Assembly (NCBI GenBank): GCA_947491305.1
Contig: CANLIL010000029.1
Span: forward strand, 1 to 35,620
Source: Flavobacteriales bacterium
GTDB taxonomy: Bacteria; Bacteroidota; Bacteroidia; Flavobacteriales_D; Crocinitomicaceae
Direction: 5' to 3'
Length of the DNA stretch: 35,620 bases
Part shown: one piece after another, positions 2,320 to 23,581 of the stretch
How positions within the stretch are numbered: the first letter of the stretch is position 1
Layout of the letters: each line of letters opens with the position of its first letter
Notes under the pieces: model-generated
What the model saw: the letters and a program-made list of their open reading frames with translations, nothing else
Databases searched by the model: none
What the model was told of the DNA's origin: nothing
Program-made: the position numbers and the translations under genes

Positions 2320-3177
2320 TTAATTGATTGTGTACGTAACTCCGTTAACAGTTACTGTAAATGTATCATCACATGTACCAGTACCATAATCAATTACACG
2401 TAATGGTTTGTTTATCGGTGTAAAATTGATTGTACCACTAACAAATTTACCACAACCAAAGATTTTGTGTAACGGATTTGTAATTACTGATGTCCAACCT
2501 CCACCGTTTGAAATAGAAGCATTTGCAGAACCTGTAATTGAATATTCATTATCCCAATGTGTTGGAGTTGTGTAACCAGCTATAACTGTTCTAACGCGCG
2601 TTGCAGTATATGTTACTACTTCACCAGAAGTCAACGTAACTAAACCGTTAACTTGTACATTGAAATATGGTTGATTAGAACTATTTAACCCCATATTAGT
2701 AACTGTTTTTGTTCCTTCAATATGATTGTCATTTACATAGTAATCAACTGGTGTAATTGTTTTAACAGTTCCAACTGTATAGAATGATCCAGTAAATGTA
2801 ATTACCAACTTTCCTCGGCGTTGTTTTCCATCATTACAATCGCAATTAACTGTTCCCCAGTCAACTGTTACTGTATGTCCAACTCCAACTGTATCAATTG
2901 TAATTACAACATTACATGCCGCTTTTTCAATATCTACTGGTTTGTCATTTCCGGACACAACAATAACTTCGCCATGTTTGTAAAAGTCCAAATTCCCTTT
3001 AATTGCTTGGTCCGCAATTGTTGACATTTCGTCATACGCATTATCAACGGTTCTATTGATTGAAGGCGTATTACTATTATCGTAATCGTTGTCTTTCTTT
3101 TTACAAGCTTGAATTCCAAGCACTAACGTTAAAAGCATCATTCCTACTAACGTTTTGTTCATCCACTGTTTTTTCAT
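2320..3177 (-). CDS. Uncharacterised lipoprotein
   Basis: 285 residues. A type II signal peptide ends in the lipobox Leu-Gly-Ile-Gln-Ala-Cys25, followed by KKKDND; Lys/Asp-rich residues after the Cys are usual for Bacteroidetes lipoproteins. The mature part is rich in Thr, Val and Asn with alternating hydrophobic residues, suggesting a beta-rich fold. It has few Cys, among them the Cys pair CNC around residue 113. I do not recognise the family. ATG codons at residues 1 and 6 are both possible starts. It lies 65 bases downstream of the sigma factor/barrel operon on the same strand with no clear terminator between, so it may be cotranscribed or belong to that sigma factor's regulon. It is closed by a strong terminator. 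Confidence 0.75.
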   Translation of the reverse strand: MKKQWMNKTLVGMMLLTLVLGIQACKKKDNDYDNSNTPSINRTVDNAYDEMSTIADQAIKGNLDFYKHGEVIVVSGNDKPVDIEKAACNVVITIDTVGVGHTVTVDWGTVNCDCNDGKQRRGKLVITFTGSFYTVGTVKTITPVDYYVNDNHIEGTKTVTNMGLNSSNQPYFNVQVNGLVTLTSGEVVTYTATRVRTVIAGYTTPTHWDNEYSITGSANASISNGGGWTSVITNPLHKIFGCGKFVSGTINFTPINKPLRVIDYGTGTCDDTFTVTVNGVTYTIN

Positions 3178-3242
3178 AAGTTATAATTTAAGTGTGTTCT
3201 TTTCTAAAGATGTAAGTTCTTAAAAAAAGGTTGGGTATAAAA

Positions 3243-4604
3243 TTAAAAAATATAATTTAATCCAACTTTTAATTGCAAATTAGTTGAATTTATTGACATT
3301 TTTGAGGTTTCAACAATTTTTGTAAAGGATCTGTAATAATTTAATTCTGCATTTAAACGCCAAGATGGACTCAAAACATACGTTCCACCCATACCTACAA
3401 ATGCATTGAACGAGTTTTTACGGATAATTTCATTTCCTTTAAAGGTGAATGTTCGTTCATTTCCGTCCTTTTCAATATTCAACAAAGAGACATTGTTAGT
3501 AATTCGCTCAAGCGCAACACCCAATTTTAAGTAGGGATGAAATTTCTTTACGGTAAAGTCGTATCGAACAATTACAGGCAATAGCAGGGAACTAGAAGTG
3601 TGGTTTACTTTTACGTTTAATAGGGTATAACTCGTCGTTTGAAAGTAATCGTTTAGTTCTACTGCTGCAATTTTTAAATTACCATCATTAGTAGAAAATT
3701 CATACGAATCATTGTCTGCTTTGTCTTCAATTTCTTTCGTGAACCACTTACTTTCAAACGTATATCGATTAAATATAAGCCCTGTTTCTAAAGATAATTT
3801 TTTCGTTAATTGATAACCGAAATCCATACCGATGTGTTTGTTTCGCATGGGAATGGCGCGATCGACTAAATCTTTTGTGTTCGGGTGATTACTATTAAAA
3901 TCCCCATTGATTTCTTGAATTCTAACGCCTCCACCAATTGCCACACCAGCATAAAACGAGTGTTTTTTTCTTATTTTTTCTAACGGTCTATTGCGCGTTA
4001 TTAAATCAAAAGTAGCGTGTGCAATTTGCATTAACGGAGTTAGTTTCAAATAAAGAAGCGGTCTATTTTCAAGCTCAGCCTGTAGTGTATTTATAGTTGT
4101 TTGTTCATTTTTAGTTTGATTTTCTTCTTTGTTTGAGGCATTACTTGTTAAAATTTCAGCAGACAAAGTTTCATTAGCTGCTCTCAATTTTTTAGGTTGG
4201 ATTGTTCCAATAGAATTTTTTAGTTCAAGCTTTGAAACGGGTCCAACCGTTAATGATTGTTGCTGATTGTTATTTATACTTGCTTTTTCTTGAATCGATT
4301 GTTTTTTGGCAATTGTGAAGTTTGTTTTAGTTTCAGTAGTTTGTTTTTGAATGATTGAAGTACTTACTTCAGTGTTATTAAGATTAGTTTGTTTCGTATT
4401 ATTTAACTGAATACCAATAAAAGTTGACACAACTAACAGTCCGGATAAACCGAAAAAATAAAAACGGAAGCGGTTGTTTCGAAATAATTTTTTTTCAATA
4501 GTAGCCCACGATTGTGAAGGAACAGCCTGTTCTTCATTTTCAAATTTTGATTGAAAAAGCGCTCTTAAATCTGCATCGTTCTGTTGTGGTTCGTTTCGTT
4601 CCAT
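3243..4604 (-). CDS. Membrane-anchored protein with anti-sigma-like N-terminus and beta-barrel domain
   Basis: 453 residues in three parts. Residues 1-46 are charged and probably cytoplasmic, with an LFQSKFENEE...VPSQSWATIEKKL pattern like the N-termini of many Bacteroidetes sigma-linked membrane proteins. Residues about 47-66 form one hydrophobic transmembrane helix. After a low-complexity Asn/Gln/Thr linker (about 67-210), residues about 215-453 look like an outer-membrane beta-barrel: HSFYAGVAIGGGVRIQ at the start, alternating strands and a terminal Phe. The ATG lies one base after the stop codon of the ECF sigma gene, so translation is probably coupled. I infer that the protein controls, or is controlled by, that sigma factor. 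How one chain holds both a helix and a barrel is unclear. Confidence 0.7.
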   Translation of the reverse strand: MERNEPQQNDADLRALFQSKFENEEQAVPSQSWATIEKKLFRNNRFRFYFFGLSGLLVVSTFIGIQLNNTKQTNLNNTEVSTSIIQKQTTETKTNFTIAKKQSIQEKASINNNQQQSLTVGPVSKLELKNSIGTIQPKKLRAANETLSAEILTSNASNKEENQTKNEQTTINTLQAELENRPLLYLKLTPLMQIAHATFDLITRNRPLEKIRKKHSFYAGVAIGGGVRIQEINGDFNSNHPNTKDLVDRAIPMRNKHIGMDFGYQLTKKLSLETGLIFNRYTFESKWFTKEIEDKADNDSYEFSTNDGNLKIAAVELNDYFQTTSYTLLNVKVNHTSSSLLLPVIVRYDFTVKKFHPYLKLGVALERITNNVSLLNIEKDGNERTFTFKGNEIIRKNSFNAFVGMGGTYVLSPSWRLNAELNYYRSFTKIVETSKMSINSTNLQLKVGLNYIF

Positions 4605-4605
4605 C

Positions 4606-5148
4606 TTATGCTTTATTTGCTAATTCTATTAATTTTTTTAATTCTTTTTTAGCATCGTGTAATTGCGATTTAGAAGTGCCTTCACTAATTCCTAATTCCT
4701 GTGCAATTTCTTTGTGTGTATAACCTTCTATGTAATATGCTGAAAATATTTGCTTTCTGCCATTTGGCAATTTATTTAAATAATAGGTAATTTCTTCTAG
4801 GTTTAATGCTTCAATAAGTGTTGTGTCAATGAGAAAAATATCGTCCACGCTTTTAGTATCTTTCAATACTGCAGCATTTTTTTTACGAAAACTCCCTAAC
4901 GCTGTATTTACAGTAATTTTCTTCATCCAACCTTTAAAAGAATGCGTGCCTGAATATTGATGTAAATTGTTAAAAATCAATACAAACGCATCTTGTAAAA
5001 CATCTTTTGCCTCGTCCTTATCTGAAATGTAACGCAAACAAACTGCATATAACCAATTACTATAAGTTGCATACAATTCAGCACAAGCCTTTCGGTCGCG
5101 CTGGATACATTTTGCGATTAAATCTATTTCGTTTTCTTGACGATGCAC
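4606..5148 (-). CDS. ECF-type RNA polymerase sigma factor
   Basis: 180 residues, the usual size for extracytoplasmic-function sigma-70 factors. Region 2 spans about 10-85, with the DEAKDVLQDAFV helix that binds core polymerase and the FKGWMKKI -10 recognition part. Region 4 spans about 122-173, with a helix-turn-helix (YTHKEIAQELGISEGTSKSQ) for the -35 element. It directs transcription of an unknown regulon. The barrel gene follows after one base on the same strand, and a lipoprotein gene lies beyond it. A TACCTTTG element sits 26 bases upstream of the ATG, so the gene is probably expressed from the housekeeping promoter type. Confidence 0.95.
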   Translation of the reverse strand: MHRQENEIDLIAKCIQRDRKACAELYATYSNWLYAVCLRYISDKDEAKDVLQDAFVLIFNNLHQYSGTHSFKGWMKKITVNTALGSFRKKNAAVLKDTKSVDDIFLIDTTLIEALNLEEITYYLNKLPNGRKQIFSAYYIEGYTHKEIAQELGISEGTSKSQLHDAKKELKKLIELANKA

Positions 5149-5174: not shown

Positions 5175-5182
5175 CAAAGGTA
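5175..5182 (-). promoter_or_regulatory. -7 element TACCTTTG of the sigma factor operon
   Basis: This is an exact match to the Bacteroidetes -7 consensus TAnnTTTG, read on the minus strand. It lies 26 bases before the ECF sigma ATG. No convincing -33 TTTG was seen. Confidence 0.55.
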
Positions 5183-5251
5183 GATGTAAAAATGGATTAA
5201 TTGGTTGGGTGACTTTGTGAATTTATTTATTTTTCGGTAACATACGTCACA

Positions 5252-10056: not shown

Positions 10057-10277
10057 GCTTTTGATCAATTTGAACGTGTAAAGATAGAAATTATGGAGGA
10101 AATATTGTTTTTTTCTGAAGGAACACCCAGAAATTATTTTTTAGTTACAAACCAACCTTTTTAAGATTAATTACATCTTTGAATTAGTGATCGTCGTTTT
10201 GATTGTTTTTTAACATATATTACAACTTTTACTACAATAATAATATGAAATCATCAGTTAATAAAAAAAACAAACAC

Positions 10278-11138
10278 ATGAAAAAACACACCATTGTCTT
10301 ATTTGCCGCAAGTGCATTAAACTTAACCCCTCTTTTTGCTCAAGAAGCAACACCAACAAAAACGGATAAAAAATGTTCGTTTCACATCACCGAAGTTCAA
10401 TTGCAAAACGGTTTTCAACTAAATCCAATGCCGCGCACGAACTTACTTGATTTTCAAAGTTTAGCACCAAATTCTATTTTATTGGGAACAGACTTTTCTT
10501 CGTATTCGTTGGTAAATCGACCAGCGACTGGAGGTTCATTTCACGCCTTATCGGTCGGAATAAAATTTAAGAAAAGTAATCCAACTTTACGTTTAGGCGT
10601 GAGCTATTTGACCAATAATAATTTAAACATGGCGCATGAAAAAGTCATTAAATATGCTTACGACACGTTGACATCAACACAGACAGGCACACAAACAGTT
10701 TTAACACACGATACATTGTACCGTTATTCAATGACCAATCTTTCTAAGCAATTGCGTTTAGAGGCGTCGTTGATTTTCAGGTCAAATGAAGCGGCTCGTT
10801 GGTCTTTGTATGCTGGGGTTGGCGCAAGTTTAGGTTATACAATTGAATCTACAACGCGCGTTGATTACACCGTTGAAAGCATAGATCGCCCAAAAAATAA
10901 TGGAAACACAATTGCTTCACGTCAAACAGAAATTTTTGAAAACAAAAACTATTTGACATCAACTATTTATGCGCCACTAGGAATAGATTTTAGAATTGGT
11001 AAAAAACGTGAATTCTGGAAGCACCTTCATTTAACGTATGAATTAAAACCATCGATTAATTTTGTTGCAATTCCAGAGATTAAAACGTTTACAACAGTTG
11101 GTTTAGTTTCTACAGGAGGCTTGCGCTACACATTTTAA
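10278..11138 (+). CDS. Outer-membrane beta-barrel protein, uncharacterised
   Basis: 286 residues from the ATG at 10278, chosen because it begins a signal peptide (MKKHTIVLFAASALNLTPLFAQ, residues 1-21, cleaved near FAQ). An in-frame ATG at 10245 and a TTG at 10203 would only add a polar extension. The mature protein has many alternating-residue strands (LSVGIKFKKS, LRLGVSYL, SLYAGVGASLGY, IYAPLGIDFRIG) and ends in Tyr-Thr-Phe, the usual terminal aromatic of BAM-inserted barrels. Function and specific family are not recognised. It is a single-gene unit closed by a strong terminator. The 200-base divergent region to ileS shows no clear TAnnTTTG. Confidence 0.75.
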   Translation: MKKHTIVLFAASALNLTPLFAQEATPTKTDKKCSFHITEVQLQNGFQLNPMPRTNLLDFQSLAPNSILLGTDFSSYSLVNRPATGGSFHALSVGIKFKKSNPTLRLGVSYLTNNNLNMAHEKVIKYAYDTLTSTQTGTQTVLTHDTLYRYSMTNLSKQLRLEASLIFRSNEAARWSLYAGVGASLGYTIESTTRVDYTVESIDRPKNNGNTIASRQTEIFENKNYLTSTIYAPLGIDFRIGKKREFWKHLHLTYELKPSINFVAIPEIKTFTTVGLVSTGGLRYTF

Positions 11139-20767: not shown

Positions 20768-23581
20768 TTAATGCGCGTCTAACCAATTATCTCCAAATTG
20801 CAGTTCAACTTCCATCGGAACTTCTAATTGAATGGCATTTTCCATTGCTTCTTTCACCAGCTTTTTCATCAAATCTTTTTCTGAATTGTGGACATCAAAC
20901 ACTAACTCATCGTGTACTTGTAAAATCATTTTAGATTTCAAATCTTGTTGTTGCATCGCACGGTAAACTGCGACCATTGCCATTTTGATGATGTCAGCTG
21001 CTGAACCTTGAATCGGCGCGTTGACTGCATTTCGCTCCGCAAAACCGCGTACAACAGCATTCGAGGAATTGATGTCTGGTAAATAACGACGACGTTGCAT
21101 AATGGTTTCAACGTATCCTTTTTCGCGTGCTTGTGTTACGGCGCCATCCATGTAGTTTTTTATGGTTGCATATTGTTCAAAATAACTATCAATGATTCCT
21201 TTCGCTTCTGTTCTTGAAATGCCTAAATTTTGTGACAAACCAAAAGCAGATTGACCATAAATAATTCCAAAATTGACTGCTTTTGCAGCGCTTCTTTGTT
21301 CACGTGTCACTTCGTCTAGTTGCACATGAAATACTTTTGCAGCGGTTGCTTTGTGAATATCGTGTCCACTTTTGAACGCTTCGATCATTGCGGCATCTTT
21401 ACTTAAAGCGGCTATAATTCTTAATTCAATTTGTGAGTAATCGACTGCCATTAAGGTAAAATCTGCATTTCTAGGAATGAATGACTTTCTTATTTCACGA
21501 CCATTTTCTGTTCGAATAGGAATGTTTTGCAAATTAGGATTATTTGAACTTAAACGTCCCGTTGCCGTTACTGTTTGCATAAAACTAGTATGTATGCGCC
21601 CGTCAATTTTATCTGTCATGGTTGGTAACGGATCCACATACGTACTTTTCAATTTGCGCAATTGACGGTATTGCAAAATCATCGGTATAATTGGGTGGTC
21701 TTTCTCGTGTTTTTGAAGAATATCTTCGGAAGTAGCATATTGCCCTGTTTTGGTTTTTTTCGCTTTTGCGGATATTTTTAATACGTCAAATAAAATTTCT
21801 CCCAATTGTTTCGGTGAATCAACATTGAAATCCATTCCAGCTTCTGCTTTGATTCCTTTTTCTAATTCAATTAAAGTGATTTCTAATTGTTTCGAATATT
21901 CATTTAATCCAGCAACATCAATGGCAATTCCCTCTTGTTCTATTTCTTTCAAAACTTCTACTAAAGGCATTTCCATTTCATAGAACAGTTCTTTCAAATG
22001 GTCTTTTTGAATTTCAGGTTCAAATAATTGTTTTAGTTGAAAGGTAATATCCGCATCTTCACAGGCGTAGTCAGAAATATCTTCTGGCTTTAAATCGCCC
22101 ATATTTCCTTGGCCTTTTCCTTTTTTACCAATCAATGTTTCGATAGAAATCGGTTGATAGTTCAAGTAAAATTCAGCTAAGAAATCCATGTTTTGCTTCG
22201 ATTCTGGATTGATCAAATAATGCGCAATCATGGTATCAAACAATGGAGTTTCCACTTTTATTCCATAGCGATTCAATACTTTTAAATCGTATTTTATGTT
22301 GTGAGCGATTTTTTCAATCGTTGGATGCTGGAAAAATGGCAAAAATTCTTCCACAATTGATTTTGCAGCTTCAAAATTCGCCGGTACAGCTACATAAAAT
22401 GCTTCGCGTGCTTTGTAAGAAAAGGAAAGTCCAACTAAATCCGCATGCAAGGCATCTATACTGGTTGTTTCAGTATCAAAACACACGTGTTTTTGGGCCA
22501 ATAAAAGCGCTAACAATTCTTTTCGTTCTTCAGGGTTTGTAATTAAATGGTAGCTTGGCTTTTCAGTAGCAATGGTTTTGTATTCAGCAGTTGGTGTCGG
22601 ATTTTGTTCGACCAACATACTTTGCATACCAAATAAATCTAGCTGTGCATTTTCTCCATTATTAATGGAAGGTTGAGCGGTAATTACAATGTCTTCACCA
22701 ATAACGCGGCGCGCTAAATTCCGAAATTCCAATTCCGTAAAAATATCTTTCACTTTTTCTGTATCGACATCGCAGACTAACAAATGCGCATCATCAAAAG
22801 GAACTTCAACATCAATAATTATTGTTGCCAGCATTTTAGAAACCAATCCTTGCGCTTCAAAATTGATGACATTTTCTTTTTGTTTTCCTTTTAAATCGTC
22901 CACATTTTTGAAGATGTTTTCCATTGTTCCATATTTCTGGATCAATAGTTTCGCTGTTTTTTCTCCAATTCCAGGAATTCCAGGAATGTTATCTGCTGCA
23001 TCTCCCCATAATCCTAAAATATCAATGACTTGAATCGGGTCTTGAACTTCAAATTTTGCACACACTTCAGGTACGCCCCAGATTTCTGGTGGATTACCGC
23101 CTCTTCCTGGTTTAAACATAAAAATATGCTCAGAAACCAATTGCGCATAATCTTTATCCGGCGTCATCATATAGGTTGTGTAGCCTTTTTTCTCAGCAAC
23201 TTTTGCTAGCGTTCCGATCACATCATCTGCTTCGAAGCCTGCAACTTCCAGCATTGGAATGTTAAATGCGCGGACAATATTTTTTATTGGCTCAATCATC
23301 GATCGAATGTCTTCCGGCATTTCTTCGCGGTGTGCTTTGTAGAGGGCAAAATCTTCTTGACGGTGTGTTGAACCTCCTGGAGGATCAAATACAACTGCAA
23401 TATGTGTTGGTTTTTCGTTTTTTATAACATCGATTAAAACATTGGTAAACCCAAATGCGGCAGAGGTATTTTGTCCTTTTGAGTTAACTCTAGGGTTTTT
23501 TGCAAATGCAAAATAAGCTCTGTAAATCAACGCATACGCGTCCAATAAAAATAATTTTTTGTCGATGTCTTTAGATAACAT
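20768..23581 (-). CDS. polA: DNA polymerase I
   Basis: Fills gaps and removes RNA primers in replication and repair. 937 residues with all three domains. The 5'-3' exonuclease is at 1-300 (LFLLDAYALIYRAYF; EADDVIGTLA; TPDKDYAQLV). The 3'-5' proofreading exonuclease begins near 350 with Asp369 and Glu371 (CFDTETT) intact, unlike the inactive version in some bacteria. The polymerase domain has catalytic Asp714 (VDYSQIELR), the O-helix RSAAKAVNFGIIYGQ and Asp891 (VHDELVF). The start MLSKDIDKKLFLLDA is as expected. The upstream gene on the same strand is a protease, only 31 bases away, with a weak hairpin between. The minus-strand leader shows no strong promoter. Confidence 0.97.
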   Translation of the reverse strand: MLSKDIDKKLFLLDAYALIYRAYFAFAKNPRVNSKGQNTSAAFGFTNVLIDVIKNEKPTHIAVVFDPPGGSTHRQEDFALYKAHREEMPEDIRSMIEPIKNIVRAFNIPMLEVAGFEADDVIGTLAKVAEKKGYTTYMMTPDKDYAQLVSEHIFMFKPGRGGNPPEIWGVPEVCAKFEVQDPIQVIDILGLWGDAADNIPGIPGIGEKTAKLLIQKYGTMENIFKNVDDLKGKQKENVINFEAQGLVSKMLATIIIDVEVPFDDAHLLVCDVDTEKVKDIFTELEFRNLARRVIGEDIVITAQPSINNGENAQLDLFGMQSMLVEQNPTPTAEYKTIATEKPSYHLITNPEERKELLALLLAQKHVCFDTETTSIDALHADLVGLSFSYKAREAFYVAVPANFEAAKSIVEEFLPFFQHPTIEKIAHNIKYDLKVLNRYGIKVETPLFDTMIAHYLINPESKQNMDFLAEFYLNYQPISIETLIGKKGKGQGNMGDLKPEDISDYACEDADITFQLKQLFEPEIQKDHLKELFYEMEMPLVEVLKEIEQEGIAIDVAGLNEYSKQLEITLIELEKGIKAEAGMDFNVDSPKQLGEILFDVLKISAKAKKTKTGQYATSEDILQKHEKDHPIIPMILQYRQLRKLKSTYVDPLPTMTDKIDGRIHTSFMQTVTATGRLSSNNPNLQNIPIRTENGREIRKSFIPRNADFTLMAVDYSQIELRIIAALSKDAAMIEAFKSGHDIHKATAAKVFHVQLDEVTREQRSAAKAVNFGIIYGQSAFGLSQNLGISRTEAKGIIDSYFEQYATIKNYMDGAVTQAREKGYVETIMQRRRYLPDINSSNAVVRGFAERNAVNAPIQGSAADIIKMAMVAVYRAMQQQDLKSKMILQVHDELVFDVHNSEKDLMKKLVKEAMENAIQLEVPMEVELQFGDNWLDAH

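Follow-up and report, generated by a model that had tools for sequence, protein, structure and literature searches.

Can a single protein carry a signal from the outer membrane of a Gram-negative cell to a sigma factor in its cytoplasm? This question is raised by a gene pair of a Flavobacteriales bacterium of the family Crocinitomicaceae (assembly GCA_947491305.1; 2.53 Mb in 88 contigs), in which an ECF sigma factor gene is followed by a gene for a membrane-helix and beta-barrel protein. The window, i.e., the whole stretch of DNA analyzed here, comprises positions 1 to 35,620 of contig CANLIL010000029.1 (35,620 nucleotides). The genes of main concern are the following.

4606 to 5148, minus strand: ECF sigma factor gene, 180 amino acids, GTG start, with Pfam sigma regions 2 and 4
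3243 to 4604, minus strand: whole gene of a putative Dma-type anti-sigma factor, 453 amino acids, ATG start
2320 to 3177, minus strand: lipoprotein gene, 285 amino acids, predicted target, with the pair as its neighbor in each of the two orthologous loci

Dma denotes a family of dual membrane-spanning anti-sigma factors in Bacteroides thetaiotaomicron, which the available text of a 2026 paper (PMC13088901) describes as proteins with an anti-sigma domain at the N terminus, followed by a transmembrane helix, a disordered tether, and a barrel at the C terminus, encoded beside an ECF21 sigma factor. That text refers to a 2024 paper (PNAS e2321910121) for the first publication of the family. We found the same arrangement in the window, namely, an ECF sigma factor gene beside a gene for a head-helix-tether-barrel protein. 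The pair is very probably a Dma-type sigma/anti-sigma pair, for which we infer sigma binding, location, signal, release, and promoter use; gene order, domain layout, conservation, and the promoter motif were computed directly.

Layout of the gene pair and its products

The sigma factor matched Sigma70_r2 (E value, 2.5e-12) and Sigma70_r4_2 (E value, 7.4e-17) in Pfam, and its counterparts in two orthologous loci are of equal length and 91% and 87% identical. The open reading frame coordinates (5148-4606 and 4604-3243) agree with the initial annotation in that a single base (4605) separates the sigma TAA codon from the ATG codon of the barrel gene. This one-base junction was also found in two same-genus orthologues, the barrel proteins of which have 449 and 447 amino acids. 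At an E value of 1e-5, a related barrel protein occurred in 6 of 99 genomes, with its own genome included, and in 3 of 25 same-genus genomes, with its own left out, and the distribution of the pair is hence patchy. The search for conserved sigma-barrel pairs that had been suggested at the outset found a sigma gene adjoining the related barrel gene in five of the six loci (own locus included), the sixth stopping at a contig end. The gene pair is more than a chance arrangement.

The 453-residue protein is divided into four parts.

4473 to 4604, minus strand: residues 1 to 44, predicted cytoplasmic two-helix anti-sigma head (helices 8 to 21 and 32 to 42), from the AlphaFold2 model and the head-profile match
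4392 to 4472, minus strand: residues 45 to 71, predicted single inner-membrane helix with a net positive N-terminal side, from the model and the sequence
3969 to 4391, minus strand: residues 72 to 212, predicted disordered tether, from the model and orthologue comparison
3246 to 3968, minus strand: residues 213 to 453, predicted OmpA-like outer-membrane barrel with F as its last residue, from PF13505, the model, and fold matches

In the AlphaFold2 model, which was built from an input alignment of 40 barrel relatives, the head consists of two short helices (residues 8 to 21 and 32 to 42) with a loop between them, followed by a helix at residues 45 to 71. The pLDDT values of the head were 75 to 83 at residues 11 to 40 and 54 to 59 at its ends. 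Residues 36 to 46, on the N-terminal side of the membrane helix, carry a net charge of +3. The initial annotation had named a cleaved signal peptide in place of a helix anchor as an observation that would speak against its reading; since 44 residues with two predicted helices lie ahead of the membrane helix, the layout is not that of a cleaved signal peptide, and the single membrane helix can be retained. The identity of the head to its counterparts in the two orthologues is 91% and 70%.

The long linker seen at first also appears in the model, as a tether of about 140 residues (71 to 210) with block pLDDT values of about 40 to 50. Compared with the orthologue in locus L003 (the same protein as that in L007), the head is 70% identical, the tether 22%, and the barrel 73%, whereas total length differs by no more than 6 residues. 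The tether thus appears to be a spacer, the length of which seemingly matters more than its sequence. The barrel part was likewise borne out: PF13505 (OMP_b-brl) matched with an E value of 6.1e-7 and 30.2 bits against a cutoff of 28.7, and the model places eight long and four short strands within residues 216 to 452, with pLDDT values mostly of at least 88 (62 to 64 at residues 231 to 250). It overlaid on the solved eight-stranded barrel NspA (Z, 20.1; rmsd, 2.5; 154 residues aligned), and an OmpA model (Z, 19.7) and OmpW (Z, 18.0) also matched.

Contact between the head and the sigma factor was approached through a Parabacteroides relative (L045), in which the two genes share a frame. We folded its sigma factor together with the first 50 anti-sigma residues by reading through the stop codon, which makes the linker artificial; the alignment had 36 rows, 5 of them holding a head. 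The model had a pTM of 0.71, and five head blocks had pLDDT values of 61, 74, 90, 90, and 64. Its sigma factor overlaid on those of the complexes SigW/RsiW (rmsd, 4.5; 150 aligned), RpoE/NepR (4.4; 142 aligned), and CnrH/CnrY (5.2; 149 aligned). The overlay was poorer for sigma-E/RseA (13.3 over 151) and for RNA-polymerase-bound ECF forms with both domains aligned (about 21 to 27). SigG1, crystallized without a separate anti-sigma factor, overlaid equally well (3.9; 143 aligned); because of this and because there was no sigma-alone control, compactness by itself is little proof. The model is therefore compatible with a head clamp on the sigma factor without proving it, and the absence of a predicted contact, named beforehand as evidence against the idea, is countered by the compact model of this relative in a weak manner only.

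Relatives and exchange of the C-terminal part

To place the pair among its relatives, we used sigma-selected loci, i.e., the best 80 of at least 562 confirmed candidates. Two of these (L033 and L036) are titled as other phyla and lie on contigs of less than 4 kb, and two (L042 and L083) have record titles without a phylum. A complete open reading frame of at least 100 amino acids starting between -60 and +300 bases from the sigma stop was present in 72 of the 80 loci; among the other eight, five stop no more than 350 bases from the sigma gene and two more before 1 kb, and the last, L068, extends for 5 kb without any such reading frame. By a hydropathy rule, 69 of the 72 proteins have a membrane helix starting at residues 30 to 120. 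The misses were the window orthologue L007 (1.33 against a cut of 1.4), L072 (with a poorly chosen start), and L077 (a transporter-like protein). The pattern W..[ILVM] occurs within the first 60 residues of 67 of the 72 proteins, a count given without a background rate.

We compared the profile of the window group with one from 15 relatives in Bacteroidales that share its layout (Bacteroidaceae, Parabacteroides, and others, apart from Dma1 to Dma3 themselves). The whole profiles matched with a probability of 98.7 and an E value of 4.4e-16, with only the barrel part aligned. Heads alone matched with a probability of 94.9, the maximum of 40 column shuffles being 1.2. The anti-sigma-like N-terminal segment proposed in the initial annotation thus corresponds to a modeled two-helix head that matches the heads of sigma-linked Bacteroidales relatives.

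By eye, a head motif (P..xW..I...L) occurs as two or three tandem copies ahead of the membrane helix in L015, L019, L023, L029, L035, L053, L057, and L086; the records of L015, L029, and L035 are titled Chitinophagaceae. Such tandem motifs might perhaps provide several sigma-binding sites per chain.

The tails were surveyed in 100 proteins, i.e., that of the window and 99 whose genes follow related sigma genes. OMP_b-brl was found in 46 and OMP_b-brl_2 in 43 of the 100, in overlapping sets, and CHU_C, a type IX secretion sorting domain, in 12; 27 of the 99 had been obtained by barrel-protein searches. All 10 CHU_C proteins picked by eye matched TIGR04131, the type-B sorting domain, with E values of at most 2.2e-5 (five above its cutoff, one at it, and four below). 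In profile comparison, the heads of 12 sorting-tail proteins matched the barrel-type heads of Bacteroidales (97.5; shuffled maximum, 1.8) and those of the window group (89.6; shuffled maximum, 1.9). Sorting-tail proteins lie beside related ECF sigma genes in L026, L039, L042, L044, L047, L050, L061, L064, L067, and L078.

The host genome itself holds such a pair. On contig C3, an anti-sigma match (21602-22444) is accompanied by a sigma match at 22455-22970 (L191:1495-2346 and L200), and the anti-sigma protein scored 49.8 bits for CHU_C (cutoff, 27) and 32.3 for TIGR04131 (cutoff, 35). A third head-helix protein of this genome is located by a sigma factor on contig C4 (L201:2048-3256; sigma match, 47178-47711). 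This protein of 403 amino acids had no Pfam match, and its tail resembles, by eye, a diverged PKD plus sorting domain.

Among titles and abstracts, with partial coverage of the literature, we found no description of anti-sigma factors that carry a type IX sorting domain. It is conceivable, at somewhat less than even chances, that the head and helix constitute a general reporter module of Bacteroidota, with either a barrel or a sorting domain as the surface anchor, and that one genome reads both the state of a barrel and type IX export. These tail-swapped relatives are the most interesting lead of this analysis.

Promoter motif and candidate target gene

We aligned the locus with the two orthologous loci and obtained a promoter-like motif, CCCAACC-N14-TACATCT, with the following sites in the window.

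5182 to 5209, minus strand: predicted sigma operon promoter, CCCAACC-N14-TACATCT, from the motif aligned in the two orthologous loci
3208 to 3235, minus strand: a further predicted promoter with this motif, ahead of the lipoprotein gene
10151 to 10178, plus strand: uncertain third site with one mismatch, before the gene at 10278 to 11138

The genome has exactly two perfect sites, one before the sigma gene and the other before the lipoprotein gene, and its sole one-mismatch site is that at 10151 in the window. With up to two mismatches, 17 sites were found in the genome versus 13 for the reversed pattern, and thus only the best sites are meaningful. G016 and G025, both of which carry the pair, likewise have two perfect sites, one at each of the corresponding genes, and the other eight genomes searched gave a single perfect match, in G005, to a pattern that had been widened slightly. 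Neither of the orthologous genomes has an equivalent of the third site, which is therefore uncertain. The gene behind it (10278-11138, plus strand) encodes a signal-peptide protein that ends in RYTF and looks, by eye, like an outer-membrane barrel; it had no Pfam match.

ECF promoters in general have AAC at -35 and a CGTC-like element at -10, and the motif resembles these. We searched for a looser form, AACC-N16-C[AG]TC, in 100 upstream regions of sigma genes, with that of the window included and two duplicate loci dropped. It was present in 19 of the 100; shuffling gave 0.44 on average and 3 at most, the reverse strand gave none, and other spacings from 10 to 21 gave 0 to 3 matches each. Three of the 19 belong to the window group, the source of the pattern, which leaves an independent count of 16 of 97 at one exact spacing. 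Two of the 19 loci (L088 and L089) are close kin, and the site in L061 begins 4 bases inside a called gene. The occurrence of the looser motif before these 16 independent sigma genes makes self-activation of the sigma factor likely for the wider group. For Flavobacterium psychrophilum, the available text of PMC9723704 describes a CGT-box ECF motif before T9SS genes and one sigma/anti-sigma pair.

The lipoprotein gene is the best candidate target here, as predicted from its promoter-like site. Two less closely related loci, L006 and L004, also have a relative of the lipoprotein (29% and 25% identity, respectively) next to a related barrel gene. The family was found in 40 of 296 sampled genomes, its own included, and is widespread in Bacteroidota. 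In 29 loci fetched for the lipoprotein (L162 to L190, with flanks of about 1.5 kb), no sigma-Dma pair lay beside it, and one of them, L189, carries a sigma-like fragment; the lipoprotein thus does not by itself indicate the system. The same two neighbor genes flank it in 9 of the 29. NigD1 is the Dma1 effector according to the available text of PMC13088901, and a NigD-like identity was therefore weighed; this was set aside, the lipoprotein having no Pfam match up to an E value of 1.

Proposed working and relation to known systems

In the working that we propose, a two-helix clamp formed by the first 44 residues or so would hold back the activity of the ECF sigma factor at the inner membrane, a single helix would pass through this membrane, and the disordered tether would cross the periplasm. 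The OmpA/OmpW-like barrel would reside in the outer membrane and read its own state or a ligand. A change in the barrel, or failure of its assembly, would loosen or degrade the inner part and free the sigma factor, which would then activate both the operon in which it is encoded and the lipoprotein gene from CCCAACC-N14-TACATCT promoters.

A variant of this explanation, and not its opposite, is that the barrel serves as a gauge of outer-membrane assembly and that nothing outside the cell is sensed, which we consider possible, at somewhat less than even chances. In this variant, an uninserted barrel would lead a periplasmic protease to cut the tether and an intramembrane protease to free the sigma factor, as for RseA, except that the sensed protein would here be fused on. 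The disordered tether of about 140 residues would be a natural protease target, and stepwise proteolysis is among the known routes of anti-sigma release in the available text of PMC4183432. The barrel, however, is conserved like the head (73% and 70% against L003), which also suits ligand sensing.

Sigma factors often control neighboring envelope genes. The N-terminal helix might accordingly be the signal or anchor of an ordinary barrel protein, merely a target gene that shares the sigma operon; we regard this as very unlikely, because 44 residues and two predicted helices precede the helix in a manner unlike a signal peptide, because this head is well conserved in both orthologues and matches other sigma-linked heads, and because the same head and helix stand before nonbarrel tails beside related sigma factors. 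A FecR/FecI-type surface signaling pair with its receptor lost or fused would equally combine a Bacteroidota ECF sigma factor with a membrane anti-sigma factor, but is highly improbable, since Pfam at E values up to 1 gave neither a FecR domain nor a TonB-dependent receptor in the barrel protein, the sigma factor, the lipoprotein, or the protein encoded at 680-2245, the sigma factor scored 93.6 bits against a cutoff of 126.4 for the Bacteroidetes sigma model TIGR02985 (which we take to be the model for FecI-like sigma factors), and the barrel is of the OmpA-like kind and not a TonB-dependent receptor.

The Dma-type reading of the pair shares features with several known systems. Like CnrY and NepR, the head has two short helices with a loop, and the L045 model lies near CnrH/CnrY and RpoE/NepR; to our knowledge, CnrY and NepR have no barrel. 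As in the FecI/FecR/TonB receptor relay, an outer-membrane event would be reported to an ECF sigma factor, although receptor and anti-sigma factor are separate in that relay and the barrel is of another type, whereas the window encodes one anti-sigma chain. We classify the pair as Dma-type by its layout and its kinship to Bacteroidales relatives, Dma of B. thetaiotaomicron being known here by description, and its function would follow by analogy. The initial idea of one chain that spans the envelope and links the surface to the sigma factor is supported by anatomy, kinship, and the conserved pair; what does not stand as new is the contrast with the FecR/FecI relay, since this design has already been published for Bacteroides as Dma.

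In the available text of PMC13088901, loss of Dma1 or Dma2 takes effect via the sigma factor, and neighboring genes are among the most induced in the dma2 mutant; in the window, a neighbor, the lipoprotein gene, is the predicted target. Unlike Dma of gut Bacteroides, the present pair belongs to a Crocinitomicaceae-type host and has a predicted target without a Pfam match. A paper on TamL in Bacteroidota (PMC12045153) lists the Dma paper as a reference, and the word "Dma" occurs zero times in its available text. We found no report of Dma in Flavobacteriales among titles and abstracts with partial coverage of the literature, which is weak evidence of absence. New here are this member, the promoter motif with its candidate target, and the tail-swapped relatives.

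A signaling design known by experiment from gut Bacteroides is thereby extended to a lineage of Flavobacteriales, and the Dma-type design gains a candidate target gene as well as a promoter sequence that can be tested. Furthermore, if the tail-swapped relatives work alike, the same switch may also report type IX secretion.
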